From: Actinomycetes bacterium | Lineage (GTDB): Bacteria; Actinomycetota; Thermoleophilia; Solirubrobacterales; Solirubrobacteraceae | Length of the DNA: 33,230 nt | Direction of reading: 5' to 3' | NCBI GenBank assembly: GCA_021784895.1 | Contig: JAJYHG010000191.1 | Location: 1 to 33,230 of the forward strand | Shown here: positions 5,611 through 27,799 of the stretch, piece by piece | Numbering within the stretch: the stretch's first letter is position 1 | Layout of the letters: the number at the start of each line of letters is the position of its first letter | Translations under genes and position numbers: made by a program | Notes under the pieces: model-generated | Told to the model about the DNA's origin: nothing | Database searches by the model: none | Seen by the model: the letters and a program-made list of their open reading frames with translations, nothing else

Positions 5611-6755
5611 GCGGCGTTGTGATCCGCGTTTCGCCGGTGGCCGCAGGCGACGCACCGGAAGTCCGCTTGGCTCTCGCGGTTCTCCGGTGCCGTATGCCCA
5701 CACCCCGAGCATTTCTGGCTCGTGTACGCGGCGCTCACCGCGATCACTTGCACGCCGCAGGTAGCGGCCTTGTCCTGAATCCTGTGGCGAAGCATCGCCC
5801 ATCCTTGCTGGTGGATGCTTCGGTTCAGCCCGGCCTTCTGTCGGACGTGCGAGCCTGGCTCGGTCACGGTCCCACGGGCCGAGCGGACCATGCTCTTGAT
5901 CTTCAGATCCTCAAGCACGATCACGTCGTTCTCGCGCACAAGCCGGGTGGAGGTCTGCTCGATGAAGTCCTTGCGACGGTCAGCCTGCCGCACGTGCCAG
6001 CGTGCGATACACCGTTTCGTGCGCTCGCGCCGGTTTGACCCCTTCCGCTGCCGTGCTTTGCGCCGCTCCAGCCGACGCAGGCGCTGCTGCTCGCTCGCAC
6101 GTGGCGCGGGCGCTCGCAGGCGCTCACCGTTAGACGTCGTGATCGTCGCTTTGACGCCGAGGTCGATCCCGACCGTCTGGCCGGTCACGGTGCGCAGCAT
6201 GATCGGTTGCGGCGCGGTGAAGCTCACGTGCCAACGTCCCGCGCGGTCCATCGTGAACCTCGCCATCCCGTACTCGACAGGCAACGGCCGCGAGAGCCGG
6301 AAGCGCACCCACCCGCACTTTGGGACCAGGATCGCTGCGTTGTGACGGTCGTAGCGGCGGAGCTTCACGTCGCGGACCGTGAAGCTCTCGTGAATACCGC
6401 GACGCCACCAGCACGGGTAGCCGTGGGTACCGGCAAAGAAGCTAGCGACGGCACGGTCGAAGTCGCGGACGGCCTGCTGCTGCACCGCCGAGGATCCTTC
6501 CCGCAGCCACGGAAGCGCTTGGCGAGCATCAGCCAGTTCTCGCATCCGCTCTGCCGGGCCGGGGGTCGCGCCGAGCGCGGGGTTGTAGAGCTTGAACTGT
6601 TCCAGCAGCGCGTTCTTCACAAACCGTGTGTCCGAGCAGTGCCTAGCCAGCCAGCGGGACTGGTCGGTGTTCGCGACAGCACGGTAACGGTGTGCCACAA
6701 ACCTATAATACGGCTGGTGGCGGCGGACCCTGATGATTTCCGCAACGGACGGCAT
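5511..6755 (-). CDS. tnpB: TnpB RNA-guided nuclease (IS200/IS605 accessory protein)
   Basis: A full-length protein of 414 residues. The RuvC-like catalytic triad is intact: Asp198 in VGIDLGVKA, Glu282 in VIVLEDLKI and Asp378 in RRNADHNAAINILA. The zinc ribbon is complete (Cys349/Cys352 in KCSGCG, Cys368/Cys371 in RCVACG). The N-terminal half (YRAVANTDQSRWLARHC, LPWLREGSSAVQQQAVRDFD) is the OrfB helix-turn-helix/WED-type region. TnpB proteins cut DNA next to the element's target motif, guided by an RNA from the element's right end, and help the element persist after excision. Start ATG 6755 abuts the possible tnpA GTG 6756 on the opposite strand. Confidence 0.95.
   Translation of the reverse strand: MPSVAEIIRVRRHQPYYRFVAHRYRAVANTDQSRWLARHCSDTRFVKNALLEQFKLYNPALGATPGPAERMRELADARQALPWLREGSSAVQQQAVRDFDRAVASFFAGTHGYPCWWRRGIHESFTVRDVKLRRYDRHNAAILVPKCGWVRFRLSRPLPVEYGMARFTMDRAGRWHVSFTAPQPIMLRTVTGQTVGIDLGVKATITTSNGERLRAPAPRASEQQRLRRLERRKARQRKGSNRRERTKRCIARWHVRQADRRKDFIEQTSTRLVRENDVIVLEDLKIKSMVRSARGTVTEPGSHVRQKAGLNRSIHQQGWAMLRHRIQDKAATCGVQVIAVSAAYTSQKCSGCGHTAPENRESQADFRCVACGHRRNADHNAAINILAAGTAVTGRGGTAGSSGPDEASISAVAA
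6704..6709 (+). promoter_or_regulatory. -10 box TATAAT for tnpA
   Basis: A perfect TATAAT stands out in very GC-rich DNA, 7 bases before the GTG at 6717, which would make tnpA nearly leaderless. No clear -35 hexamer is seen 17 bases upstream. This position is inside the tnpB N-terminal coding sequence, so tnpA transcription would begin within tnpB and oppose it. Confidence 0.5.
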
Positions 6756-9236: not shown

Positions 9237-10784
9237 TCAGGACGTAGTTGTCGTATCGGCAGAGTTTTGTGAGTTCACAAGATTCTGGCCACTCGCCTGG
9301 CCACCGCCGGCGTTTCCGTGTCCCGGGCTCGTACCGGCAGCTGGTGCGCCGCTGGAACCGCTCGAAGATGCGCTGCCAGGCGCGCGGCGGCGGCGATGCC
9401 GCCTCACCGTCACCGGCCTGGCCCGCTTCAGCCGCGTCCGCTTGGCCCGGTGGACCGCCTTGCGCCCATGGCGGGTGATCAGGGTCGGCTTGGGCGCGTG
9501 CGCGGCGGGTGAGCTCGCCTGGCTGCCGTGCGTGCCGGCGCCCGCACCGGACTGGCTGGCTGGCGGCACTCCATGCCCGCTCGCGTGTGCACCAGCCTGG
9601 CCGTGCAAGCCGTGACCGCCGCTGACGCCCGGCTCGTGATGCGCGGGATGTACCTTCAAGCTGGCTCCGAGCGCCCCGGGCGTCGTGTTCTGAGCCCCGT
9701 GCCTTACACCACGGACGCGCACCGACTGGGCCCGTACCCCGCTCAGTGGCGGAGCGGCGCTTGCAGCTCGGTGCTGTGAGCCGTGTTCTGTCACCGGGGT
9801 CCCAGATACAGCATGAGGCGCACGGGCCGCGGGAGCTACCGGGGCGTGATGCAGCACGGTGAACGTTCCCGCGGCGACGGTTGCAAGTGCGGCGGCGCCA
9901 AACGCCGCCGCCTTGATTGAGACGGCTGTTCCCACACCCTTGGCGGTCGTGCTTGCGGCCAGCGTTGTCGCACCGCCACCCGCATGGCCGGAAGAGGCGC
10001 CGGTGACACGTGCCAGCAGGCCGGCGGCACCGGCCGCTGGTAGCGCTGGCCACAACGCCAGCATCTCGGCTCGGCGTTGCGGAACCGCCTCGGCGAAGGC
10101 GGCGCAGGCCGGGCAGCCCTGCAGATGCGCTCTCACCCGACGGCTGCGCAGAGACCGGCGGTCGTCGGCTGAGATCAGCTCCTCAATCTGGCTGCAGGCG
10201 GCGGCACGGCCCTCGGCAAACTCCTGCAGTGACCGCCTTGCTTCGAGGATCGTCTGCTTGGCGGCGCCAACTGAGATCTTCAGCACCTCAGCGATCTCCT
10301 CGTGCGACAGGCCCGAAAGCTCGCGCAGCACCAGGGCCGCGCGCTGGTTCTCTGAGAGCTCGTGCAGATCCCGCAGCAGGGTGGCAAACCGTTCGTTGCT
10401 CTCGATCACCTCTGGCAGCCGCTGCGAAGCCTCCAGCTCGGGCGGGAGCTCGGCCGTAGCAGCGCGCGAGCGGATCACGCTGACCGACTCGTTGTGGGCG
10501 ATGCGGAAGAGCCACGGCCGCAACGGCGCGTTCCGCTTTCCGTTCCTCAGCGCCAGCAGCGCCTTGGTGAGCGCCGACTGCAGCGCATCCTGTGCGTCCT
10601 GGTCGTTGCCGACCAGCGAGCGGCAGTACCGGTAAAGCGGCTGATGGTGGCGGTGAAACAGCACCGTGAACGCCGACTCGCGCCCCGACTCGATCTCGCG
10701 GGCCAGCCGCTCGTCGCTCAGCAGGCGAGCAGGTAGGCCTACCGGCTTGATCTGGGCGGACGGTGACGTTGCCTCGACCTCCAT
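9237..10784 (-). CDS. ECF sigma factor fused to anti-sigma-like zinc-binding and membrane tail
   Basis: A 515-residue protein. Residues 30-105 are sigma region 2 (ESAFTVLFHRHHQPLYRYC, APLRPWLFRIAHNESV) and 140-187 are region 4 (LSENQRAALVLRELSGLSHE, then EIAEVLKISVGAAKQTI). Cys197 with His220-x3-Cys224-x2-Cys227 (HLQGCPAC) is the zf-HC2 pattern of zinc anti-sigma factors. Residues 284-311 form one probable membrane helix. The remaining 200 residues are Ala/Gly/His/Pro/Ser rich with a basic block (KAVHRAKRTRLKRARPVTVR), presumably outside the cell or wall-associated. Sigma and anti-sigma parts in one chain imply a membrane-tethered sigma factor, perhaps released by proteolysis (inference). No separate anti-sigma gene is adjacent. 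Confidence 0.88.
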   Translation of the reverse strand: MEVEATSPSAQIKPVGLPARLLSDERLAREIESGRESAFTVLFHRHHQPLYRYCRSLVGNDQDAQDALQSALTKALLALRNGKRNAPLRPWLFRIAHNESVSVIRSRAATAELPPELEASQRLPEVIESNERFATLLRDLHELSENQRAALVLRELSGLSHEEIAEVLKISVGAAKQTILEARRSLQEFAEGRAAACSQIEELISADDRRSLRSRRVRAHLQGCPACAAFAEAVPQRRAEMLALWPALPAAGAAGLLARVTGASSGHAGGGATTLAASTTAKGVGTAVSIKAAAFGAAALATVAAGTFTVLHHAPVAPAARAPHAVSGTPVTEHGSQHRAASAAPPLSGVRAQSVRVRGVRHGAQNTTPGALGASLKVHPAHHEPGVSGGHGLHGQAGAHASGHGVPPASQSGAGAGTHGSQASSPAAHAPKPTLITRHGRKAVHRAKRTRLKRARPVTVRRHRRRRAPGSASSSGSSGAPAAGTSPGHGNAGGGQASGQNLVNSQNSADTTTTS

Positions 10785-11115
10785 TGGTCACATTACTCGT
10801 TACGTTGGCGAGAGCTGAAAGTCAGGATCTACCGGCTCGAGACGGCGCGCATGGGCGTCGCGCCGCGTCGTGCTCACTTATCGGCAGCCGGCCCGAGCTT
10901 GGTTAGCCCACTCGACACAAAGCCCCACACGCCGGCGCCGCCATCATCGCTCGCTGCGAGCGATCGCAGCTGCTGGCCCGTACCTCCTCAGCAGACGCCC
11001 TCGACGGCATAGCGATCCCTGTCGGCTACTTTGTCCCTGGGGACACGACCCCAAGGAGAGGGCCATCAAGAAGCTGTCAGGGACTGGGCACGAGGCCAGC
11101 TCCAACTGCCTGCGC
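10785..11115. other. Intergenic region upstream of the ECF sigma gene
   Basis: These 331 bp contain no convincing gene; short frames here lack codon bias and homology. Two small perfect hairpins are present: ATCGCTCG-CTG-CGAGCGAT (10946-10964) and TGTCCC-TG-GGGACA (11032-11045). The second, after the vapC stop at 11116 on the minus strand, may act as its terminator. The sigma promoter should lie near 10790-10830 but no consensus box is evident. Confidence 0.4.
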
Positions 11116-11526
11116 TCAGCCCCGTGAGGCCGACGGTGCGAACCACTCGATCCGGCACTCAGGGCCCGTGGCCTGCTTGAGTCGTGCGTCGGTTGTCAGC
11201 AGCGTTGCATCGAGTACCTCCGCCAGCGCCACGTACATTGCGTCCCAGCCGCGCACGTTCTCCCTCAACTCCCACGCTCTGGCCAGGAGCATCTGATGCG
11301 AGAAGCGTTCGCCAGGCCAGTCGGAGAGGTCATCGACCGCTTGCATGGCAGCAGTTTGGTCCAGACGGCCGGTGCGGCGCTGATCGCGAATGAGGCTGAA
11401 GACCTCCACATCGATGACATGCGGAGCAGCCCAATCCTGATCGACAAGCAGGCGCGCGCGTATCGACTCAGCTTCCGCGGTTCCCGCGAGTACCTCGAAC
11501 AGACAGCCAGCGTCAACTACCAGCAT
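11116..11526 (-). CDS. vapC: VapC-type PIN-domain toxin
   Basis: About 136 residues with the PIN nuclease pattern of acidic residues: Asp in MLVVDAGCLFEVL, Glu in VIDVEVFSLIRDQR, Asp in VRGWDAMYVALAEVL and Asp in LLTTDARLKQA. VapC toxins are Mg-dependent endoribonucleases that cut tRNA or rRNA. The start is not certain: ATG 11526 gives the usual N-terminus, ATG 11550 adds eight residues. Either overlaps the end of vapB (by 14 or 38 bp), the normal coupled order antitoxin-toxin. Confidence 0.88.
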   Translation of the reverse strand: MLVVDAGCLFEVLAGTAEAESIRARLLVDQDWAAPHVIDVEVFSLIRDQRRTGRLDQTAAMQAVDDLSDWPGERFSHQMLLARAWELRENVRGWDAMYVALAEVLDATLLTTDARLKQATGPECRIEWFAPSASRG

Positions 11527-11764
11527 CGGGCCATGGGCCGCGGCGTTCATCCAGCGCAGCGATGACGTCGCGCCTCGTGATTTCTGTGCTGCCGGTCCGC
11601 CGGCGCGTACGCTCGAGCCACTCTCGAGCCGACGGCCTTGCTGCGATCCGTGCCGCCTCGGCGCGCAGCAGCTCGGGCACACTGATCCCGGCCTCGCTCG
11701 CTCGCGCCGCGAGCACCTTGTACACCTCGTCATCGACATCGCGAATCTGGATTGTCTTGGGCAT
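11513..11764 (-). CDS. vapB: VapB-type antitoxin (FitA/RHH family)
   Basis: An 83-residue protein starting MPKTIQIRDVDDEVYKVLAA and continuing RASEAGISVPELLRAEAARI, a ribbon-helix-helix DNA-binding domain of the FitA-like antitoxins. The C-terminal part (TEITRRDVIAALDERRGPWP) is the toxin-neutralising segment. ATG 11764 is taken as start; a TTG two codons upstream is less likely. Nested palindromes just upstream (11790-11818) are its likely operator. Confidence 0.85.
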   Translation of the reverse strand: MPKTIQIRDVDDEVYKVLAARASEAGISVPELLRAEAARIAARPSAREWLERTRRRTGSTEITRRDVIAALDERRGPWPDAGS

Positions 11765-11789
11765 TGACAAAGTCTACTATGCGTCCGCG

Positions 11790-11818
11790 CATGACATCAT
11801 GCGCTGGCGCATGTCATG
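11790..11818. promoter_or_regulatory. Nested palindromic operator upstream of vapBC
   Basis: An outer inverted repeat CATGACAT (11790-11797) / ATGTCATG (11811-11818) encloses an inner one, CATGCGC - TG - GCGCATG (11798-11813), all sharing one centre near 11804-11806. It lies 25-55 bp upstream of vapB, where ribbon-helix-helix antitoxins bind to repress their own operon. Binding by this VapB is inferred from position. Confidence 0.55.
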
Positions 11819-11914
11819 ACGCGATACCGCATGTCTGCGGGCTCGACGAGGCGGAGGCGGGCGGAACTCACATTGGGAAAGCTCGGGACTGGATCGCCGC
11901 TGAGCAAGGACGCC

Positions 11915-12055
11915 CGCGAGACCGGCTGCGTACGCCGCGACGGTGTTCGGGCACCGCTCGTTGTGCGTCAGCCACGGCAGATACTCGTCGACCTCGACCA
12001 CCGGCCGCAGATCCGGGCCGACCAACATCCACGACTCCAGGCCAAAGCTCAGCAT
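11915..12055 (-). pseudogene. Tyrosine recombinase/integrase N-terminal remnant
   Basis: The minus strand reads LRPVVEVDEYLPWLTHNERC followed by PNTVAAYAAGL, the SAM-like N-terminal core-binding domain of Tn554-type tyrosine recombinases (consensus xxVxEYLxWLxxxxRSPNTVRAYAxDL). The homology ends after about 45 residues, where the frame runs into unrelated sequence, and there is no catalytic domain. This is a leftover of an integrase gene next to the VapBC pair. Confidence 0.6.
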
Positions 12056-12279
12056 CACCAGCCGAGGTGCCAGAGGCGACGCTCTACATATGGCTACACA
12101 TAACATGCATTATCGAGCGCAACAAGCGCGGCGTCGAGTGGCCGCCCTTTCGCGTCTCCTGCGCCGGTCGTCACCGCGGCCTCGCGGCGTGCGGCAAAAC
12201 CGGCGCCGATCTCGAAGCCGAGCAGGCCGCCGCCCAAGATCGCATAGCGGTGACCGTGCTCCGCGATGATCGTGTCGAG

Positions 12280-12602
12280 CACATCAACCACCGTCTCGAG
12301 TGGCTTCTTCTTCGCGCCCATGATCGCCTTCAGCGACGGGTAGCGCGGCTCGTTGATCGCATCGCCGACCGAGATGACGGCCGGGAGCGTCACCCTGACC
12401 GCGTCTTACACGTACTCCGCCTGGCGCTCCAGCCCCAGAGTCGCCGGCGCTTCCGGTGAGGCTGCCGGCTCGACGTCGAGCTTGACGACCTGGGTCAGCG
12501 ACGGCATCTGCAGATGGTCTGCGAGCACCGCGCCGATCGTGTAGCACTCGCCGTCATCGGCCGCCGGCCGAGCAGCACGAGGTCAGGCCACTCGTGCGCC
12601 TG
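12280..12602 (-). pseudogene. etfB remnant (electron-transfer flavoprotein beta subunit)
   Basis: Minus-strand pieces in order: HEWPDLVLLGR; after a one-base shift near 12562, CYTIGAVLADHLQMPSLTQV and VKLDVEPAA up to a TAA stop near 12410; then in the same frame VTLPAVISVGDAINEPRYPS and LKAIMGAKKKPLE, the highly conserved EtfB C-terminus. The first hundred residues are missing, so this is a truncated, frameshifted, stop-containing remnant. The frame then continues into HRYAILGGGLLGFEIGAGFA (12110-12250), which resembles a dinucleotide-binding loop of another flavoprotein and may be a fused fragment. It directly follows the flavin oxidoreductase gene. Confidence 0.7.
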
Positions 12603-12626
12603 GAGCGGTGTCTGTGGGCTTCGCGG

Positions 12627-14603
12627 CTAGATCTCACTGGCGGTCGTCAGTGCTTCGAGGGTGGCCTCCTCGACGGTGCGTGGCGTGACGCAGTCGCCGA
12701 TCGGGGTCGCGTCTATGCCGGCGTTCAGCAGCGCGTCGAGCAGGCTGGTGTTCGGAGTTTGCCCGCAGGCGAGCACTAGGCCGCTGATCTCCTCCAGCGC
12801 GATGATCTCGTCTGTGAGGGTGTGCTGGAGGTACACGCTGTCGCTGTCCACGCCGCGCGGCCGCATCAACGGCAGGACGGAGATCTTGTCTTTGTGCAGC
12901 TCGGCGAGCGCCTGGTCGCGCACGTACTGTTGGAGGAACTCGCCCGCGTTGTAGCCGTCGACTGCGAGAGTGACCTTGTGGTGTGCCGCGGCCAAGAGGC
13001 GTGCGACGCCGATCCCGATCCAGTCCCCGCGCCAGTCGGCTACGATCACGTGCCCGGCAGGCATCGCCTCACCGCGGATGATCTGCCAGGCGTCTTTGAC
13101 GACGGGGGTGCCTTGCGTTTCGAGCTCTGGCCTGTATGGCGTCGCTCCGGTCGAAACGATGATCGTGTCGGCGTTCTCCGCACGCACGGCGTCCGCATCC
13201 ATTTCGTGGCCGAGGAGCAGCTCGACGCCGGCGCGCTCAACTTCACGGGCGAGGTTGGTCGCCGCGCCGCCGAACTCCGCGCGGCCCGGCAGCCGCTCCG
13301 CGAGCAGAACCTGCCCCCCGAGACGGTTCGACATCTCACATAGTCGAACATGGTGTCCGCGCGTGGCTGCGATCGCTGCTGCCTTCATGCCCGCAGGCCC
13401 TGCGCCGATCACCAGCACCCGCTTTTTCGTCTTTGCGGCCTTCGGCTTGCCGTAGCGCAGCTCCCGTCCGCTCTCGGGACGTTGGATGCACGAGATTGGG
13501 AAGCCAGCGTGGAAGTGGCCGATGCACGCCTGGTTGCATCCGATGCACGCGCGGATGTCGTCCACCTTGCCGGCCTTCGCGAGGCGTGGAAGCTCAGGGT
13601 CGGAGATCAACGCCCGAGTCATGATGCACGCGTCGACGTCACCGGAGGAGATGAATCGCTCCGCCTCCTGCGGCTGGTTGATGCGGCCAGCGACCATGAC
13701 CGGGACGTCACAGACGACCTGCTTGACCTCGCGCGCTTTCGGGACTGCGTATCCATTGGACCAGCTCATGTCTGGCACAATGTGGTCTGACCCGGCGAGC
13801 GTCGCCGACGTCCCGACGGTCACGCTCACATAGTCCAGCAGGCCTGCCGATGCAAGCTGCGCGCAGGCTTGGATGGCCGTATCTTCCGCGACCCCGGCGG
13901 GGTCGCGCTCGCCGATCGAGATTCGTAGGCCGACCGCAATCTTCCCGCCCACGCGATCGTGCACGGTCTGCGCGACGTCTTTGAGGAATCGGATCCGGTT
14001 CTCGTCGGACCCCCCGTAGCGGTCGTCGCGTAGGTTGACCTGCGGGTTCAGGAACTGGGCCGGCAGATAGCCGTGGCTCGCGACGATCTCGACGCCGTCG
14101 AGGCCCGCCGTCTGCAGGCGGATGGCCGCGCTGCCGTACCCGTCGATGATCTCTTCGACCTCGGTCAAAGTAAGCGCGCGCGGCATGACGTGGAAGCGCT
14201 CCTGCGGCACCGACGACGGCGCCACCGGCGACTGCGCTGAGCCATCCGGGAGGCGATCCATCACCTCGCGGCCGGGGTGAAACAGCTGCCCGAACAGCTT
14301 GGTCCCGAACGGGTGGACCGCCATTGCGATCCGCGTATAGCCCGGGATACAGGCGTCGTCTGACGCCATCAGCACGTGACTGGTGTACCTCGCGGTCTCG
14401 TGGATGCCTGCGGCCTGCACGACGATCAGCCCGACACCACCTTCCGCGCGCGCGGCGTGATAGGCGACGAGCTGGTCGGTGACCTCGCCGTTCTCGGTCA
14501 TGACCGTGTCGTGCGCGGAGGACACGATCCGGTTCTGGATCGTTATCGGACCTAGGGTGAGCGGCGAAAACAGCGCCGGAAACATCGCGGATTCGGACAT
14601 CAT
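12627..14603 (-). CDS. FMN/4Fe-4S/FAD oxidoreductase (TMADH / 2,4-dienoyl-CoA reductase family)
   Basis: A 658-residue three-domain enzyme. Residues 8-340 are an Old-Yellow-Enzyme TIM barrel (LGPITIQNRIVSSAHDTVM; active-site SHGYLPAQFLNP with His177/Tyr179; RYGGSDENR). The 4Fe-4S ligands are Cys353, Cys356, Cys360 and Cys372 in CIGCNQAC...SC. Residues 395-650 form an FAD/NAD-binding module (VLVIGAGPAGMKAA). Family members include trimethylamine, dimethylamine and histamine dehydrogenases, N-methylproline demethylase and FadH. The etfB remnant downstream hints at an ETF-linked amine dehydrogenase or demethylase, but the substrate cannot be named. ATG 14603 follows AAGGGAAG. Confidence 0.88.
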   Translation of the reverse strand: MMSESAMFPALFSPLTLGPITIQNRIVSSAHDTVMTENGEVTDQLVAYHAARAEGGVGLIVVQAAGIHETARYTSHVLMASDDACIPGYTRIAMAVHPFGTKLFGQLFHPGREVMDRLPDGSAQSPVAPSSVPQERFHVMPRALTLTEVEEIIDGYGSAAIRLQTAGLDGVEIVASHGYLPAQFLNPQVNLRDDRYGGSDENRIRFLKDVAQTVHDRVGGKIAVGLRISIGERDPAGVAEDTAIQACAQLASAGLLDYVSVTVGTSATLAGSDHIVPDMSWSNGYAVPKAREVKQVVCDVPVMVAGRINQPQEAERFISSGDVDACIMTRALISDPELPRLAKAGKVDDIRACIGCNQACIGHFHAGFPISCIQRPESGRELRYGKPKAAKTKKRVLVIGAGPAGMKAAAIAATRGHHVRLCEMSNRLGGQVLLAERLPGRAEFGGAATNLAREVERAGVELLLGHEMDADAVRAENADTIIVSTGATPYRPELETQGTPVVKDAWQIIRGEAMPAGHVIVADWRGDWIGIGVARLLAAAHHKVTLAVDGYNAGEFLQQYVRDQALAELHKDKISVLPLMRPRGVDSDSVYLQHTLTDEIIALEEISGLVLACGQTPNTSLLDALLNAGIDATPIGDCVTPRTVEEATLEALTTASEI

Positions 14604-14784
14604 CTTCCCTTACTCAAGAGCTATACGAGTCGGCCGCGGCGCATCTCCTGCGACCAGGGCCCGCTTCCAGTAACTGGCGGCCGGTACGTCAGTGCCGTCG
14701 ACGCTGATTTGACCGGGTACAGTACGCCTGTCGCTACTACGGGTCGGTCACCTGCCTTATCGGGCTCTCTCTCGCTGGCGGTCG

Positions 14785-14899
14785 GTGGTCGCCGCGCGAG
14801 CACAGATCAGCGAGAGCTTCCTGATCCAGCTCGAGCGCGGCTTGACCGGCGCCAGCCTCGACTGCGCTGCAGCGGCTGACCGGAGTGCTCGGGTTACAG
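14785..14899 (+). pseudogene. XRE-type HTH remnant
   Basis: Frame 1 gives VVAARAQISESFLIQLERGL and TGASL; a neighbouring frame continues ALQRLTGVLGLQ. Together they form the second half of a Cro/CI helix-turn-helix (ISESFLxQLERGxxxASxxTLQRLxxxLGL). A frame change, no start and no full domain mark it as a relic. The rest of the 14604-15250 gap (14604-14784 and 14928-15250) shows no further gene I can support. Confidence 0.45.
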
Positions 14900-14927
14900 G
14901 GTCGCGGAACTCTTCGAGCCGCGACCC
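14899..14927. repeat. GC-rich hairpin downstream of the XRE remnant
   Basis: GGGTCGCGG (14899-14907) pairs perfectly with CCGCGACCC (14919-14927); inside, CTC-TTC-GAG extends the stem after an AA bulge. It shares its 9-base arm with the strong hairpin at 8670-8702. Possibly a terminator of the dead gene. Confidence 0.45.
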
Positions 14928-15250
14928 GTCGACGCGCCCGCACCCGCCAGCCGGCGACAACGCCTGGTGATACATCCTCAAAGACGTGCGGGCCGATGCG
15001 CTCCAGTCGCGATCCTGCGCTTCGACTCCTAGCCGAGCCGGTCCGGCCCGCGCTCCCACTCCGTAACGTTCTCCGCAAGCCACGCGGTGGGTTGATCAGC
15101 TCAGCCACCGTGCAGTCCCGGGATGCAAGGTCGGCGCGAGTAGCATCCTGCAAACTGCGTGTTCAGAACGTGCAGGTGGCCCCGACGATCTCAGCGGGCG
15201 CAGCCTGAGCCCGAATTGGCGGCTAGTGACACAATGCTTACCAGAACCCC

Positions 15251-15643
15251 ATGACCTACACCATCGTGAACCTTGAAGAAGTCCCGGATGCTGCGCCCGG
15301 ATTCGGCATGAGCGACATCCAGCAGGCCCGTTTTGCCCGTGAGCCGCTGCAAGCGACCGACACTGGCCTCGCCTTCCACCGCATCCAGCCGGGCCGACGG
15401 CAGGGCTTTGCTCACCGCCACCGCAACGCAGAGGAGATTTACGTCGTGCTGGCTGGCTCCGGCGCAGTCGTCCTTGACGGAGACGTGCGAGAGCTCACGC
15501 GCCTGGATGCGGTCCGTGTCGCTCCAGCAGTCCTGCGTGCGTTCGAGGCCGGGCCGGACGGAATGGAACTGCTCGCCTTCGGCCCTCACCACGAGGCTGA
15601 CGGTGAGATGGTCCACGAGGGGTTTTGGCCCGACGCAGGCTGA
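15251..15643 (+). CDS. Cupin-domain protein
   Basis: A 130-residue single cupin barrel. Motif 1 is GFAHRHRNAEEIYVVLAGSG (His, His, Glu metal ligands of the G(X)5HXH(X)3,4E(X)6G pattern). Motif 2 is degenerate around VAPAVLRAFEAGPDG, where the usual second histidine appears to be replaced (PAVLRAFEA instead of PxxxHxxxN). It ends FGPHHEADGEMVHEGFWP. Substrate unknown; stand-alone cupins of this size range from sugar isomerases to small dioxygenases. ATG 15251 gives a complete N-terminal strand MTYTIVNLEEV. Isolated gene, flanked by accessory DNA. Confidence 0.82.
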   Translation: MTYTIVNLEEVPDAAPGFGMSDIQQARFAREPLQATDTGLAFHRIQPGRRQGFAHRHRNAEEIYVVLAGSGAVVLDGDVRELTRLDAVRVAPAVLRAFEAGPDGMELLAFGPHHEADGEMVHEGFWPDAG

Positions 15644-20918: not shown

Positions 20919-21680
20919 TCACAACGAGGCGTAAACGAGCCCGACTCCCCACATGCCGAGGTAGGCGGCCGTGTTCTGGTTCAGGTCGAGCGTGCGGCCG
21001 TATACGTATGGACCGCGGTCATCGACGGTGGCCACGACCGTGCGGCCCGCGTAGTAGAGCGTCACCTTGGTCCCGCATGGCAGCGTCCGGCTGGCGATCC
21101 CGTAAGTCGCATGGAAGCCGCAGGCAGTGTTGCCACCGTCGTAATACCACGAGGCCACGACGGGCGCGAGCGTCATCAGGCTGCCCGCGGAAGCGGACGC
21201 CGGGCGAGCGCGGCGACTGCCTGCGAACACGACCCGGATCGGCGCCCGCTCAGAGCTGCGGACGCGGTAGCGGATGCCAAAGCGCCCGCTACGCCTGGTG
21301 CGCGCCCACGCCAGCGTGCGCCATCCCCCCGTGGTGCGCGCGACCAGCCGGACCCACGAGCCCCGGCGGGCGGGCATGAGAATCCCTGCGACCAGAACCG
21401 TGCTCCCGGGGGCCGCGGTGAGGTGATCACGGTGCACCATCAGCCGCGACGGGACCAGGCGGCGGCGCGATCTGCGGCCGTGCAACTGAGCAGCCCGCCC
21501 GTCGCGCCTGGGGAGCGGACTGCCAAGGGCAGCCGCCTTGGCGAGCGCACTGGCTGATAGCGCCGCTGCCAGGACCGCTGCACACACAACGCCACGCCCG
21601 CTGGCGCCGAACAGCAGCGGACGGCGCAGCAACCTGGATCCGGGCGCGCGATACGCCCACGATCTACGTCTGGCTCTCAT
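20919..21680 (-). CDS. Secreted RlpA-like double-psi beta-barrel cell-wall protein
   Basis: 253 residues. A basic start (MRARRRSWAY) and hydrophobic stretch GVVCAAVLAAALSASALA form a signal sequence or anchor, followed by a 120-residue basic middle with a beta-rich segment (STVLVAGILMPARRGSWVRL). The C-terminal 80 residues are a DPBB domain: VASWYYDGGNTACGFHATYG, ASRTLPCGTKVTLYY and VATVDDRGPYVYGRTLDLN, with the RlpA-type catalytic Asp in DDRGPY. Such proteins cut or bind peptidoglycan. Start ATG 21680 has GAGGAGG 12 bases upstream. A c-di-AMP riboswitch occupies its leader, fitting control of wall remodelling. Confidence 0.88.
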   Translation of the reverse strand: MRARRRSWAYRAPGSRLLRRPLLFGASGRGVVCAAVLAAALSASALAKAAALGSPLPRRDGRAAQLHGRRSRRRLVPSRLMVHRDHLTAAPGSTVLVAGILMPARRGSWVRLVARTTGGWRTLAWARTRRSGRFGIRYRVRSSERAPIRVVFAGSRRARPASASAGSLMTLAPVVASWYYDGGNTACGFHATYGIASRTLPCGTKVTLYYAGRTVVATVDDRGPYVYGRTLDLNQNTAAYLGMWGVGLVYASL

Positions 21681-21699
21681 GACCTGAGGGCCTCCTCTT

Positions 21700-21900
21700 T
21701 TCAATCTCGACTGGCGCCTGCGGAGTTAGCTGACGGGCTCGCGACGAGACGTGCGCTCTGGTTGTGCGCTCGCCCGCGCCGCTACGGGTTGCAGGCGGCC
21801 AATGAGGCCGGCGATCCGATTCGCCCCCGCCGGTCGCGCCACCATGGCCGACCGACAATGGTTCCCCCGCTCGCCCTCGCACCGAGCAAGGACGATTCGG
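21700..21900 (-). promoter_or_regulatory. c-di-AMP riboswitch (ydaO-yuaA class) controlling the RlpA-like gene
   Basis: On the minus strand the leader contains, in order, the class hallmarks: GCGAGCGGGGGAACCA (about 21859-21873), GGGGGCGAATCGGA (about 21815-21828) and CCCGTCAGCTAACTCCGCAG (ending about 21718) followed by GCGCCAGTCGAG. The ydaO-yuaA consensus has GCGGGGGAxCCAA, GGGGUGAAU and CCGUCAGCUAACCUCGxAGGCG at these places. The element ends about 20 bp before AGAGGAGG, the ribosome-binding site. Such switches are usually turned off by c-di-AMP and often precede cell-wall hydrolases (RpfA, NlpC/P60) in Actinomycetota. Limits are approximate. Confidence 0.87.
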
Positions 21901-22582: not shown

Positions 22583-23125
22583 TCACTGGTATTTGATCAG
22601 CGAATGGACTTGGTAGTCCGAGAGCTGGCTCCGGCCGGCAAAGGACTCAAGCTCGACCAGGAACACGCACGCGAGCACCTCACCGCCGAGGTGGCCCACG
22701 AGCTCCGCCAGCGCGCGCGCCGTCCCGCCCGTGGCGAGGAGATCATCGTGGATGAGAACTCTGGCCCCCCCGGCAAAGGCGTCGGCATGCATCTCCAGCG
22801 CATCGATGCCGTACTCCAAGGCATACTCGGCGCTGACCGTGTCGTGCGGCAGCTTGCCACGCTTGCGCGCGGGGACGAACCCGGCATGCAGGCCACGGGC
22901 GATCGCCCCACCGAGGATGAAGCCACGGGCCTCGGCGGCGACCACGAAATCGATCTCGAGGTCCCGGGCGTAGCGCGTCAGCCGCGTGACGGCCGCGTCG
23001 AGCGCACGCGGGTCCAGCAGCAGCGGCGTGATGTCGCGAAACAGGATCCCCGGACTCGGAAAGTCGGGGATGTCGCGCACGTAGGTGCGGAGGTTGACAC
23101 CCTCTTCAGAGGGGTCGGCAGGCAT
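22583..23125 (-). CDS. apt: Adenine phosphoribosyltransferase
   Basis: A 180-residue protein, normal for the family. Marks are VRDIPDFPSPGILFRDITPL, FVVAAEARGFILGGAIA, FVPARKRGKLPHDTVSAEY and the PRPP-binding loop RVLIHDDLLATGGTARAL. It converts adenine and PRPP into AMP (purine salvage) in the cytoplasm. It starts 10 bp after the ftsR-like stop, so the two are co-transcribed. In many Gram-positive bacteria apt lies beside relA, which is not in this window. Confidence 0.96.
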   Translation of the reverse strand: MPADPSEEGVNLRTYVRDIPDFPSPGILFRDITPLLLDPRALDAAVTRLTRYARDLEIDFVVAAEARGFILGGAIARGLHAGFVPARKRGKLPHDTVSAEYALEYGIDALEMHADAFAGGARVLIHDDLLATGGTARALAELVGHLGGEVLACVFLVELESFAGRSQLSDYQVHSLIKYQ

Positions 23126-23135
23126 CAGGCGATCC

Positions 23136-23891
23136 TCACGTCGCGATCTTACGCAGGTCGCGAATCAGCAGCAGATGCTTGAGGTGGGTGGTCACCGAGG
23201 CGAGGTTCTCGAGCGCCTCGACAGCCTCACGGCGGCGATCGGGGTTGCGCGAACGCAGCGCCGGCGCGAGGATGCTCTGAAGCAGCTGTGCTTCACGGTC
23301 GGCCGAGGTCCGGAACACGCGCAGGTTGCGCCCGCCGACGCCGTAGCGCGCGAGCTCCGAGACAGCGCGCACGATCTCGCGCTCGGTGTCATCAAAGTAG
23401 CGCGTACCAGCCCTCAGCTCGCCTCTGATCACACCGAACTCGACGAGCTCAGCGATCAGCTTGGGCTCAGCGCCCGTCTCCTCCACCACGTCGCCAAGCG
23501 AGTACAGCGCGCCCGGATCGCGGCTGACAGAGGCACGGCGCAACGACCGCGAGTCGGGTGCCGGGGAGACATCGCGTTCACTGCGACCTCCCGCCAGCTC
23601 CTGCCTGATCACCCGCAGGGGCAGGAACTCGTCTCGCTGCAGGCGCAGGATCGTGCGCAGCCGCTGCACATCCTCGGGCGTGTAGAGCCTGTAGCCACCC
23701 TGGGTTCGCCGTGGCGTCAGCAGCTTCTGATCCTCCAGATAGCGGATCTTTGAGATCGAGATATCGGGAAACTCGAGCTCGAGCGCCTTGCAGACCGCTC
23801 CGATCGTCACCGCCTTGGCCCGTGGCCGCCCGTTGTCGGCCCCGACTGTCTCGGGCAACTCGACCGCCAGCTCATCGCGCTCGGCGCTCAT
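23136..23891 (-). CDS. ftsR: FtsR-like MerR-family transcriptional regulator
   Basis: 251 residues. The MerR winged helix-turn-helix lies at about 28-95: VTIGAVCKALELEFPDISIS, KIRYLEDQKLLTPRRTQGGY, RLYTPEDVQRLRTILRLQR. The C-terminal half (YSLGDVVEETGAEPKLIAEL, YFDDTEREIVRAVSELARYG) matches the FtsR group (mycobacterial Rv1828), an activator of ftsZ in corynebacteria. The preceding gene is a GarA-like FHA protein, exactly the Rv1827-Rv1828 order, which strengthens the call. ATG 23891 overlaps the upstream stop by one base (TGATG). Confidence 0.85.
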   Translation of the reverse strand: MSAERDELAVELPETVGADNGRPRAKAVTIGAVCKALELEFPDISISKIRYLEDQKLLTPRRTQGGYRLYTPEDVQRLRTILRLQRDEFLPLRVIRQELAGGRSERDVSPAPDSRSLRRASVSRDPGALYSLGDVVEETGAEPKLIAELVEFGVIRGELRAGTRYFDDTEREIVRAVSELARYGVGGRNLRVFRTSADREAQLLQSILAPALRSRNPDRRREAVEALENLASVTTHLKHLLLIRDLRKIAT

Positions 23892-24358
23892 CAACGCCCC
23901 AGAAAGGCGAGCTTATATTTCCCGATTTGCAGCTCGTCGCCGTCGTTGAGGCGCTGTGAATCGATTCGCCGCCGGTTTACGTAGGTTCCGTTCAGAGAGC
24001 CGCAATCATCGAGGTAGTAATGCTCACCCCGCTTGACCACCACGGCGTGGTCGCGCGAGACCGTCACGTCGTCCAGGAATATGTCGCTGTCGGGCCGGCG
24101 ACCGACCGTGAGCCGGGTGCGCTCGAGCGGGAACGCCTCTCCTGCGCGGCCGCCACCGGCACGGATCACGAGCATGGCGGAGCGCTCGCTGGCGGAGTCG
24201 GCCGCAGCCCCCTCGATCTCGCCGGTCTCCGCGATCCGGTAGCTGGCGGTGGAGTCGGCGGCCTGGCTCTCTGACACACGCATGAAGGCGCCGCAGCGCT
24301 GGCAGTAGTTGGCTCCGTCAGCGTTGGCGAAGCCGCAATCGGGGCAGTGCTGTGCCAC
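23891..24358 (-). CDS. garA: GarA-like FHA-domain protein with N-terminal zinc ribbon
   Basis: 155 residues. Residues 5-22 are a zinc ribbon (CPDCG...CQRCG; Cys5, Cys8, Cys19, Cys22). Residues 62-153 are an FHA domain with the phosphothreonine-binding set Arg87 (VGRRPDSDIFL), Ser101-Arg102-x-His104 (VSRDHAVVV) and Asn123-Gly124 (SLNGTYVNRR). In mycobacterial GarA an N-terminal Thr phosphorylated by PknB/PknG is clasped by the FHA domain, switching control of glutamate metabolism. Here Thr45 in RIAETGEIE is a candidate acidic-context site, though the mycobacterial ETTS motif is absent. It begins 5 bp after the RsiG-like gene. Confidence 0.85.
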   Translation of the reverse strand: MAQHCPDCGFANADGANYCQRCGAFMRVSESQAADSTASYRIAETGEIEGAAADSASERSAMLVIRAGGGRAGEAFPLERTRLTVGRRPDSDIFLDDVTVSRDHAVVVKRGEHYYLDDCGSLNGTYVNRRRIDSQRLNDGDELQIGKYKLAFLGR

Positions 24359-24363
24359 CGCCT

Positions 24364-24645
24364 TCAGCCTCCGTGGCCGGCCGGGCTGTCAGGCAGCTCC
24401 TCCGCCGGCGAGAAGTTGCCAGCGAGGATGTCGGTTAGCCGCTGCACGTCGGCGCCGGTGATCGCGAGCTCACCACTCTCGTCCATGCGCCGCAGGCGGC
24501 TGACCAGCTCCGCCCGCAGGATGTCGATCCTGCCGTGGAGAAGACGGCGCCGGTATGAGACCTCGAGCTCCTCGTTCTCCATCTCCTTGATGAGGTCCTT
24601 GAGCTCCTGATCAGTTAGTGAGCCGAGGTCTGGGAATGTCTCCAT
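24364..24645 (-). CDS. rsiG: RsiG-like anti-sigma factor with a single c-di-GMP-binding motif
   Basis: A 93-residue, almost wholly helical protein. Streptomyces RsiG binds c-di-GMP through E(x3)S(x2)R(x3)Q(x3)D motifs and then holds sigma-WhiG. Here Glu26-x3-Ser30-x2-Arg33-x3-His37-x3-Asp41 (within ELEVSYRRRLLHGRID) fits except for Gln-to-His. Only one motif is present, as in the Rubrobacter homologue, which works as a homodimer, rather than the two of Streptomyces. The helix continues ILRAELVSRLRRMDESGEL. ATG 24645 has GGAGGAG upstream; an alternative ATG at 24696 would add a QSQSQSQS tail. No whiG-type sigma gene lies in the window. Function is inferred from the motif. Confidence 0.72.
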   Translation of the reverse strand: METFPDLGSLTDQELKDLIKEMENEELEVSYRRRLLHGRIDILRAELVSRLRRMDESGELAITGADVQRLTDILAGNFSPAEELPDSPAGHGG

Positions 24646-24661
24646 TGCGACTGCTCCTCCG

Positions 24662-24685
24662 TGCGACTGCGACTGCGACTGCGAC
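24662..24685. repeat. Hexanucleotide tandem repeat (TGCGAC)4 in the RsiG-like leader
   Basis: Four exact copies of TGCGAC, 17 bases upstream of the likely start codon. If translation began at ATG 24696 the repeat would encode alternating Gln-Ser. Copy-number change would keep frame but alter spacing or the N-terminus. Confidence 0.8.
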
Positions 24686-24742
24686 TGCCGCGGCATTACC
24701 GGCGGCCCGAGGGACGGGAGTATAACCCTCCCGGCCACAGGG

Positions 24743-25369
24743 TCAATCTGAGCTTGAGACTTCGCCGCGAAGAGCAACGCCGCGGCGGACGTAGAGCGCG
24801 AGCGCCAGGAACCCCAGCAAGAGCCCGGCGTAGAGCATTACACGTGCCAGAGTCAACAGCCCGGCAATTGCAAAGAACGGTGCAGCCATGGTGGGGGCCA
24901 CCCCCAGCCTACCAGCCCAGTTGATCCTGATCTCCAACCCGCGCCGCAGGCTGTAGCGGCTGAGCGCAAGGATCACGAGCTCTCGCGCGATCACCAGCGC
25001 CAGCGCCCACCGCGGCAGCAGCCGGAAATCCCATGCCACAACCATCCCGGAGATCACCAGCAGGCGGTCAATCACCGGATCGAGCAGGGCTCCAAGCCGG
25101 CTGAACTGGCCGGTCAACCGCGCCGCAAAGCCATCCAGGTAGTCACCCCAGCCCGCCGCCGCGAACACGGCCGCAGCGAGGGTGCTGTGTCCTGCGCGGC
25201 TGGAGAGCGCAGCCACCAGGAAAACCGGGATCAGCGCCAGCCGCGCGTAGCCGATCGCGTTCGGGATCGTGAATGGGCGCAGTGGCTGTCCGGCGCGCAC
25301 CGCCTCCGGGGGCGGACCGGAGCGATCGGCGCCGATCAGGCGGCGGACGGTCAGGCCGCGAGGCGCCAC
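24743..25369 (-). CDS. pgsA: CDP-alcohol phosphatidyltransferase (PgsA-like)
   Basis: 208 residues with several membrane helices. The CDP-alcohol phosphotransferase motif is complete: DYLDGFAARL...GALLDPVIDRL, i.e. DGx2ARx8Gx3Dx3D. It makes phosphatidylglycerophosphate (or a related phospholipid) from CDP-diacylglycerol at the inner membrane. GTG 25369 overlaps the proS stop by 19 bp. In mycobacteria pgsA2 also lies shortly upstream of garA and ftsR, so this neighbourhood is conserved. Confidence 0.9.
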   Translation of the reverse strand: MAPRGLTVRRLIGADRSGPPPEAVRAGQPLRPFTIPNAIGYARLALIPVFLVAALSSRAGHSTLAAAVFAAAGWGDYLDGFAARLTGQFSRLGALLDPVIDRLLVISGMVVAWDFRLLPRWALALVIARELVILALSRYSLRRGLEIRINWAGRLGVAPTMAAPFFAIAGLLTLARVMLYAGLLLGFLALALYVRRGVALRGEVSSSD

Positions 25370-27051
25370 AGCTCAGCGATCGCTGATGCCGCGCCCTCCA
25401 GCGGGAGGGCGCGGGAATCCTGGCCCCGGCGCACCTGCACCTCGATCTCACCGCTGTTGATCGTCCGCCGGCCGATCGTGACGCGTAGCGGACAGCCGAG
25501 CAGTTCGGCGTCGGCGAACTTCTCGCCCGCGCCATGCTCACGCTCGTCATAAAGCGTCTCCAGACCGGCACTGAGCAACTGCTCGTAGAGGCTGTCGGCG
25601 AGGGTGCGCTCAGCGCTTCCCTGCTTGCCGAGGCTGACCAGGTGCACGTCAAACGGCGAGATCGTGCGTGGCCAGGATATGCCCCGGTCATCCGCGAACT
25701 GCTCGACCGCGGCCGCGGCGATGCGGGCTGGACCGATGCCGTATGAGCCCATCCAGATGGGACGACTCGAGCCGTTCTGGTCCAGGTAGCTTGCGCCCAG
25801 CGGCTCGGAGTAGCGGACCCCGAGCTTGAAGATGTTGCCGACCTCGACCGCCGGCTCGATCCGGACTGTGACGCCACCGATGCTGTCGCCTGCCACGACC
25901 GTGCGGATGTCGGCGCGCTCGAACTGGAAGTCACGCCCCGGGACGACACCGCGCAGGTGGGTATCGGGGCGGTTGGCGCCGGCCACGTAACCACCGCCAC
26001 CGGCCACCACGGCCTCGTCGAGCAGGATCTTTAGCTCTGCGCCCACCGGCCCGATCGACCCCGGCGGGCCGAGCCTGGCCTCTATCTCCGCCGCGCTGGC
26101 CTGGCGGAACTGCGAGCCGAGCGCGATGCGCAGCTTGATGTCGTTGACCTTGTGGTCGCCGCGCAGCACGACCAGCACGAGCGGCTCCCCACCGGGACTG
26201 TCTTCGACCATCACCGGGAACGCCTTCAGCAGCGCTCCCGCCGGCAGATTGAAGTGCCTTGCGACCTGATCGATCGTGGTCATCGCGGGCGTGTGCTCCG
26301 GCACCGGCGCGGGCGGAGCCTCTGGAAGCACCACCGGCTGGGGGTCGGCCGATGCGACCTCGATGTTGGCGGCGTACCCGGGCGCGAGCACGACGTCGTT
26401 CTCACCGGCGGCGCAGGGTGCCATGTACTCGTCGGAGCCGTGGCCGCCCATCGCGCCAACGTCTGCCTTCACGCTGTAGTACTCGAGACCACAGCGATCA
26501 AAGATCCGGTCATAGGCTCGGGCGAGCCGCGCGTAGGAGGCATCGAGCCCCTCGCGGTCGCAGTCGAAGCTGTAGGCGTCCTTCATCACGAACTCGCGCG
26601 TGCGCAGCACTCCGGCGCGCGGACGCGGCTCATCGCGCTCCTTGATCTGAAAGTGGTAGAGCACCTTGGGCAGATCACGGTAGGAGCGGATCAGCGACGC
26701 GGCATGGCTCGTGATCACCTCCTCGTGGGTCATGGCGAGCACCAGCGGCGCGTCGCGGCGGTCGCTGAGCTTGAAAAGCTCATCGATCCCGTAGCGGCCG
26801 CTGCGCTGCCACAGCTCGGCGGGCTGCAGCACCGGCATCAGCATCTCCATGGCGCCGGTGGCGTCCATCTCCTCGCGGATGATCTGCACGATCTTCTGGT
26901 GCGCACGCCAGCCCGCGGGAAGCCAGGTCCACAGGCCCGCGCCAACCTGCCGGATCAGGCCCGCGCGCACGAGCAGGCGGTGGCTGAGCGCCTCCGCATC
27001 GGCCGGCGGCTCGCGCTCGGTCGGCAGCAGGTACTCAGATAGGCGCGGCAT
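25351..27051 (-). CDS. proS: Prolyl-tRNA synthetase (bacterial type with editing domain)
   Basis: 566 residues, the length of the long bacterial ProS. The N-terminus is [20 protein letters not shown]; class-II core regions are [50 protein letters not shown] and [13 protein letters not shown]. Between them, residues 220-400 form the INS editing domain ([34 protein letters not shown]) that clears Ala-tRNAPro. The C-terminal anticodon-binding domain is [20 protein letters not shown] and onward. ATG 27051 fits the family start. It is first in the minus-strand series and diverges from sodA. Confidence 0.97.
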
Positions 27052-27193
27052 GCCCTGCAAGGGTACCCGTGGCGGCGGCACCGTGCCCTGCGTGCACGGG
27101 CAGCCGCGGCGAGCACCGAGCATCGAGCATCGGCTGCGTGATAGAACCGCCTCTGGAGGCTCTCCCAGACAGACAACGCAGACAGGAGCGAGC

Positions 27194-27799
<606 letters not shown>

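Follow-up and report, generated by a model that had tools for sequence, protein, structure and literature searches.

The closest described relatives of the protein analyzed here are the single-motif RsiGs, of which five are given in PMC8325347, two from Rubrobacter and three from the class Thermoleophilia; those of Conexibacter, Patulibacter and Thermoleophilum were described there in 2021. According to the text of that paper, the c-di-GMP motif has the form E-x3-S-x2-R-x3-[Q/H]-x3-D, Gln at its fourth position stacks on guanine, and His, a frequent substitute for this Gln in the first motif of homologous proteins, can make the same stacking contact. The His-bearing RsiG of C. woesei (RsiGCw) binds WhiG as well as c-di-GMP, the latter with a Kd of 25 uM, or 1.7 uM with WhiG, and on the WhiG side three sigma2 residues, Lys, Gly and Arg, contact c-di-GMP (PMC8325347). 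In the same account, single-motif forms are reported solely from Thermoleophilia and Rubrobacteria, one duplication event is argued for, and the Rubrobacter RsiG-WhiG switch is tied to type IV pili.

The window, that is, the whole stretch of 33,230 nucleotides analyzed, is one complete contig of a 2.8 Mb, 287-contig assembly from the family Solirubrobacteraceae (Thermoleophilia), and its rsiG gene (Table 1) is the sole RsiG found in that assembly. The encoded protein passes the curated cut-off of the Pfam RsiG family PF22802 (71.9 bits, cut-off 27; E 3.4e-20) and is matched by phmmer to RsiG of S. venezuelae (6pfj, E 2.4e-11) and R. radiotolerans (7lq2, 7lq3 and 7lq4, E 1.4e-9 to 2.2e-9), in agreement with the homology proposed in an earlier note on this DNA. 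Its nearest named relatives among the matches listed, which may omit records from the genome of the window and from those closest to it, are a Solirubrobacterales metagenome-assembled genome (87% identity) and Conexibacter sp. S30A1 (85%). The translation contains one copy of the motif, as the note had said. When the window protein is aligned with 15 relatives (16 sequences in all), its five motif residues E26, S30, R33, H37 and D41 are invariant, and toward the C-terminus so are D66, L70, I73 and L74. To all appearance rsiG encodes a true anti-sigma factor of the small, c-di-GMP-dependent kind.

Table 1. Features of the rsiG locus in the window (all on the minus strand)
Feature	Position	Strand	Basis or remark
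apt, adenine phosphoribosyltransferase	22583..23125	-	frequent neighbour
ftsR, MerR family	23136..23894	-	NF050798; conserved neighbour
FHA protein, GarA/OdhI-like, N-terminal zinc-ribbon-like stretch	23891..24358	-	profile and PDB matches; conserved neighbour
rsiG, single-motif RsiG, 93 aa	24364..24645	-	PF22802 and PDB-sequence matches; 93 codons from the ATG (24645) to the stop (24364)
c-di-GMP motif codons E26-x3-S30-x2-R33-x3-H37-x3-D41	24523..24570	-	translation; one copy
ribosome-binding-site-like GGAGGAG	24654..24660	-	sequence; 8 nt before rsiG ATG
sigma-70-type promoter-like site TTGACC-16-TATACT	24719..24746	-	consensus match only
pgsA-like CDP-alcohol phosphatidyltransferase	24743..25369	-	conserved neighbour; start codon uncertain
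proS, prolyl-tRNA synthetase	25351..27195	-	upstream in many relatives; start codon uncertain

The neighbours named in the earlier note, pgsA, a garA-like FHA gene and ftsR, agree with the profile and PDB matches, two of them scoring below the cut-off of the named NCBIfam or TIGR model. The pgsA-like protein matches PF01066 (E 1.5e-28) and reaches 82.4 bits with TIGR00560 pgsA, below its cut-off of 109.1; the FHA protein has GarA as its best PDB match (E 3.1e-26), GarA and OdhI as its nearest PDB relatives and 121.5 bits with the NCBIfam OdhI equivalog (cut-off 200); FtsR passes NF050798 with 215.3 bits (cut-off 150). A gap of 5 bp separates rsiG from the FHA gene, and the FHA gene overlaps ftsR by 4 bp. 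On the other side, pgsA and rsiG are 97 bp apart, and this spacer contains the promoter-like site, which starts in the last pgsA bases and stops 73 bp short of the rsiG start codon. Four head-to-tail TGCGAC hexamers on the plus strand also lie between the two genes (24662-24685). A WhiG-type promoter before rsiG was considered and dropped, the nearest match in the window having three mismatches; seven matches to that promoter type occur in the window against 3.78 expected, a number reached in 7 of 100 shuffles. Elsewhere in the window, a c-di-AMP riboswitch (RF00379, 21699-21912 on the minus strand, 45 bits with a gathering threshold of 38) immediately precedes a minus-strand ORF at 20919-21704.

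This gene order recurs throughout the class. Using tblastn with the window proteins, we found the FHA gene adjoining rsiG in 50 of 51 loci from the class and near relatives (L001, L020-L036, L038, L039, L049 and L100-L129), three of them twin-motif (L034, L038 and L049) and at least four repeating another locus, and ftsR in 47; two of the four loci without ftsR (L034 and L039) run out of contig, and the remaining two (L105 and L126) have apt without ftsR. The window neighbours are absent, within the stretch fetched, from all 60 loci taken from Streptomyces and further actinobacteria, every one of which encodes two RsiG domains.

The distribution of rsiG was compared with that of its partner across 300 class genomes, each at least 85% complete. 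RsiG was found in 248 genomes and WhiG over the cut-off in 238; both genes are present in 233, neither in 47, RsiG only in 15 and WhiG only in 5, in a cross-table compiled by hand with the WhiG status of each genome taken from its best E-value (the resulting total agrees with the 238 over the cut-off). The two are jointly present or absent in 280 of 300 genomes (Fisher p 8e-36, phylogeny ignored), and the 47 genomes with neither gene span 12 genera and 6 families. The RsiG-only and WhiG-only genomes were counted on the assemblies as they stand, and gaps may contribute to both numbers: G000 is an assembly-gap case, in G017 the contig begins within the FHA gene, and in G271 and G116 no ftsR was seen. 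WhiG can occur without rsiG, since in one WhiG-only genome (G164, locus L241) the locus is intact and rsiG is missing.

The genomes with neither gene supply an empty site for comparison. An ftsR match occurs in 44 of these 47 genomes; the other three (G018, G086 and G273) have none, and their rsiG locus may be unassembled. In all 28 loci read out of the 44, the order pgsA, FHA gene, ftsR is kept, the pgsA and FHA matches being 47 to 270 bp apart, and both tblastn and the RsiG-domain HMM were without a hit to rsiG. The presence of rsiG tracks WhiG, not the operon neighbours, and we read pgsA, the FHA gene and ftsR beside rsiG as inherited synteny rather than as part of the switch, because they remain intact without rsiG in every one of these 28 loci. 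The functional tie to phospholipid synthesis and division control suggested earlier, in which RsiG would couple c-di-GMP to membrane-lipid synthesis and division through or together with these neighbours, could draw on the class-wide gene order and on the sigma-70-type site before rsiG, from which rsiG may be co-transcribed with the FHA gene and ftsR. However, the empty sites, the lack of these neighbours within the stretch fetched at the twin-motif loci outside the class and the spacer with its promoter-like site between pgsA and rsiG all argue against it, and we regard such coupling as highly improbable.

The window's own genome appears at first to lack the partner. No protein in it exceeds the FliA_WhiG cut-off of 189.6 (best 128.1 bits), and the one match across the full model (112.8 bits) adjoins an RsbW-like gene and is, by our reading, a SigB/SigF-type factor, not WhiG. 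The earlier note had held that the absence of a sigma-WhiG homologue from the genome would refute its proposal; on paper the assembly does lack one, but an assembly gap probably explains this. All 18 genomes of the same genus have both RsiG and WhiG. WhiG of G218, a genome taken as Conexibacter sp. S30A1, passes the cut-off with 282.6 bits and matches S. venezuelae WhiG of 6pfj with 302 bits, and its K38, G42 and R43 align with K57, G61 and R62 of 6pfj chain A, so that all three sigma2 contacts to c-di-GMP named in PMC8325347 are kept. We mapped 19.5 kb around the G218 whiG gene (positions 9300-10079 of this query) onto the window's genome. Contig C149 (4954 bp) matches over its whole length to query positions 10334-15285, and contig C38 (9548 bp) matches up to position 5636, 33 bp short of the contig end; contig C83 has one 114-bp match in the recombinase-like gene preceding whiG, taken to be a paralogue. 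Because the flanks of whiG sit at the ends of C38 and C149 with whiG between them, its absence is read as a gap in the assembly.

An orphan RsiG that has lost WhiG and acquired another partner, for example the adjoining FHA or FtsR protein, would fit the WhiG-less assembly, the tight packing of rsiG with the FHA gene and ftsR in a conserved order, and the 15 RsiG-only genomes. It is opposed by the 18 same-genus genomes with WhiG, by the position of the unassembled whiG between C38 and C149 and by the retention of the FHA gene and ftsR in all 28 loci read from genomes devoid of both rsiG and WhiG. Once the class had been surveyed and the gap mapped, the idea was given up, and we regard it as highly improbable.

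The motif itself was tallied in 53 single-motif RsiGs, some loci standing for one genome twice. Glu, Ser and Arg are universal; 51 proteins have His and 2 have Gln at the fourth position, 50 end the motif with Asp and 3 with Glu, and all five residues are standard in 50. The motif had been said to fit RsiG save for one position; the fit is in fact exact, and the His is no exception, as it lies within the published [Q/H] (PMC8325347). Nor can a one-motif RsiG outside Rubrobacter or the supposedly odd His count as new, because both are given for Thermoleophilia in the text of PMC8325347; these features are ordinary for the class, and we hold with high confidence that the window RsiG belongs to a kind already described there. 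Highly improbable, too, is a degenerate RsiG-like coiled coil that has lost c-di-GMP binding through replacement of the guanine-stacking Gln by His, since the His-bearing RsiGCw binds c-di-GMP and nearly all single-motif proteins tallied carry this His, mostly in an otherwise standard motif.

The window protein is thus very probably a homodimeric single-motif RsiG that, armed with c-di-GMP, sequesters WhiG and keeps WhiG-dependent genes off. By analogy with the described proteins, two copies of RsiG would pair as an antiparallel coiled coil, and at high c-di-GMP the two motifs would grip a c-di-GMP dimer; the armed complex would then sequester WhiG and silence the genes that depend on it, and a drop in c-di-GMP would release the sigma factor. 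Dimerization, ligand binding and WhiG sequestration in the window's species would follow those of its relatives. Likely WhiG targets in the class include type IV pilin genes, some of which have leaders with a c-di-GMP-I riboswitch.

The RsiG-bearing genomes chosen for comparison are also richer in other c-di-GMP components. The genome of the window encodes 10 GGDEF domains, in line with the search for GGDEF proteins proposed earlier; among 33 chosen RsiG-bearing genomes the counts range from 3 to at least 39 with a median of 15 (the two highest are lower bounds), versus 0 to 12 with a median of 1 in the 47 genomes with neither gene, where G086 and G273 have the highest counts. With stricter filters, c-di-GMP-I riboswitches were detected in 17 of the 33 genomes versus 1 of the 47, the latter being again G273. 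Genomes without both genes are mostly smaller, so that their lower GGDEF counts may come partly from genome reduction, and the size difference may explain part of the contrast in riboswitches as well.

Candidate targets were sought with the WhiG-type promoter pattern TAAA-N14-16-SCCGATAW. It yields 7 sites in 5 of 20 RsiG-bearing genomes, none of them in the window's genome, and 1 site in 1 of 20 genomes without RsiG, versus 0 and 3 sites, respectively, for the reversed pattern used as a control; with such counts it was rejected as too weak alone to mark a regulon genome-wide. One of these eight sites, in the same-genus genome G219, precedes a pilin gene, with a prepilin peptidase gene next in line, and a c-di-GMP-I riboswitch (62.4 bits) is situated between promoter and pilin. 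Of 42 c-di-GMP-I riboswitches found, 30 had their loci read, and 7 of these lie no more than 800 nt ahead of a pilin gene. Allowing up to two mismatches, a WhiG-type promoter at a fitting distance accompanies 6 of the 30 loci, which include two near-identical tandem copies, versus 8 of 6047 background stretches. The promoter lies just upstream of 4 of the 7 pilin riboswitches (3 of 7 leaders are without it) and of 2 of the 23 others. The enrichment gives a binomial probability of 5e-10 with the G219 locus, which was found via its promoter, excluded, and with a mismatch limit and distance window chosen after the first examples had been seen.

The arrangement of WhiG-type promoter, c-di-GMP-I riboswitch and type IV pilin gene was observed at L210:1404-1528 (minus strand), L257, L261 and L273. 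Among four further pilin riboswitch loci of the same genus (L216, L218, L219 and L221), one has a promoter with two mismatches, two have none and the fourth is truncated where its contig begins. The sole riboswitch found in the genome of the window precedes a gene for a small secreted protein and has no WhiG-type promoter; the G219 pilin has a single match there (E 1.3e-11), close to the beginning of a contig, and this match lacks both riboswitch and promoter. The arrangement of promoter, riboswitch and pilin gene in relatives suggests two c-di-GMP sensors on one pilin transcript, with RsiG-WhiG as the putative control of pilin transcription. We found no description of a WhiG-type promoter and a c-di-GMP-I riboswitch before a pilin gene in the literature searched, where these subjects in combination yielded a single review, and riboswitches are not mentioned in the main text of PMC8325347 as examined.

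Several Thermoleophilia encode a two-motif RsiG at the rsiG locus itself: one genus (g33, four genomes; loci L282, L283, L284 and L295), a second genus (g64, loci L168-L173) and two genomes of the family f6 (L178 and L179). The FHA gene lies beside rsiG in all 12 twin-motif loci and ftsR is present in 11, the twelfth being at a contig end. The two halves of the g33 proteins are 68-70% alike mutually; half A is 74-79% and half B 81-85% alike to the nearest single-motif RsiGs, versus at most 52% to the Streptomyces-type halves. Since its halves resemble single-motif relatives more than Streptomyces-type halves, the g33 duplication is clearly separate from that of Streptomyces, and later. A FastTree tree on 47 columns does not settle the placement of the g64 and f6 duplications, so that only that of g33 is claimed with confidence. 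A renewed twin-motif origin inside Thermoleophilia was not described in the literature searched; the terms sought are absent from the texts of PMC13232838 (2026, RsiG in Streptomyces) and PMC6544083 (a Thermoleophilia marker paper).

The RsiG helix also occurs outside the rsiG locus, joined to other domains. Clp N-terminal domains are followed by an RsiG helix at four loci (L185, L285, L286 and L287; genomes G245 and G180). The Pfam scan of this group covered L185, L285 and L287, all of which carry Clp_N and an RsiG domain over the cut-off; L286 ends at a contig end. Read by eye, three of the four (L185, L286 and L287) have the whole motif, and in L285 the His is replaced. Four RsbW-like HATPases carry a C-terminal RsiG helix (L290, L291, L296 and L297; genomes G099, G095, G100 and G101). 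Here the Pfam scan covered L290, which exceeds the cut-off, and L291, which with 26.4 bits is just below it; by eye, the motif is complete solely in L290, the last Asp being replaced in the other three. An AMP-binding enzyme of the acyl-CoA-ligase type (L292:1557-3500, minus strand; genome G048) has a C-terminal pair of RsiG motifs with a domain over the Pfam cut-off, and both helices carry the complete motif by eye. Short twin-motif frames were seen at L299 and L300. Such fusions were not met in the literature searched, where RsiG homologues and domains led to PMC8325347 alone.

These observations allow a wider reading, which we consider possible rather than probable: the RsiG helix of Thermoleophilia would be more than an anti-sigma factor, a portable c-di-GMP-binding module duplicated in tandem independently of Streptomyces and fused to Clp N-domains, to RsbW-like ATPases and to an enzyme of the acyl-CoA-ligase type. 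The WhiG regulon would also include a second sensor, the riboswitch, so that some pilin messages would be read twice, at initiation by RsiG-WhiG and afterwards by RNA. If this is true, Thermoleophilia offer natural replicates of the step from single to twin motif, for which a single event had been the basis so far, and they offer a simple case of one pilin transcript under two c-di-GMP sensors unrelated to each other. The window gene is itself one addition to a group already in print; the comparison contributes a bench-free test of partnership, in which the presence or absence of rsiG goes with that of whiG and not with that of the adjoining operon genes.

Among the known systems, RsiGCw is the nearest in kind, sharing with the window protein the class Thermoleophilia and a single motif with His, and it binds both c-di-GMP and WhiG (PMC8325347); it comes from another species, and the corresponding binding by the window protein is expected by homology. 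R. radiotolerans RsiG (7lq2-7lq4) is likewise small and single-motif, with the same helix by alignment, but has Gln where the window protein has His. S. venezuelae RsiG (6pfj, AmfC) shares the family and the c-di-GMP motif, whereas it has two motifs per chain, is a monomer and serves in sporulation control (PMC8325347). Finally, the twin-motif RsiGs within Thermoleophilia occupy the same locus as the window gene but carry two motifs.
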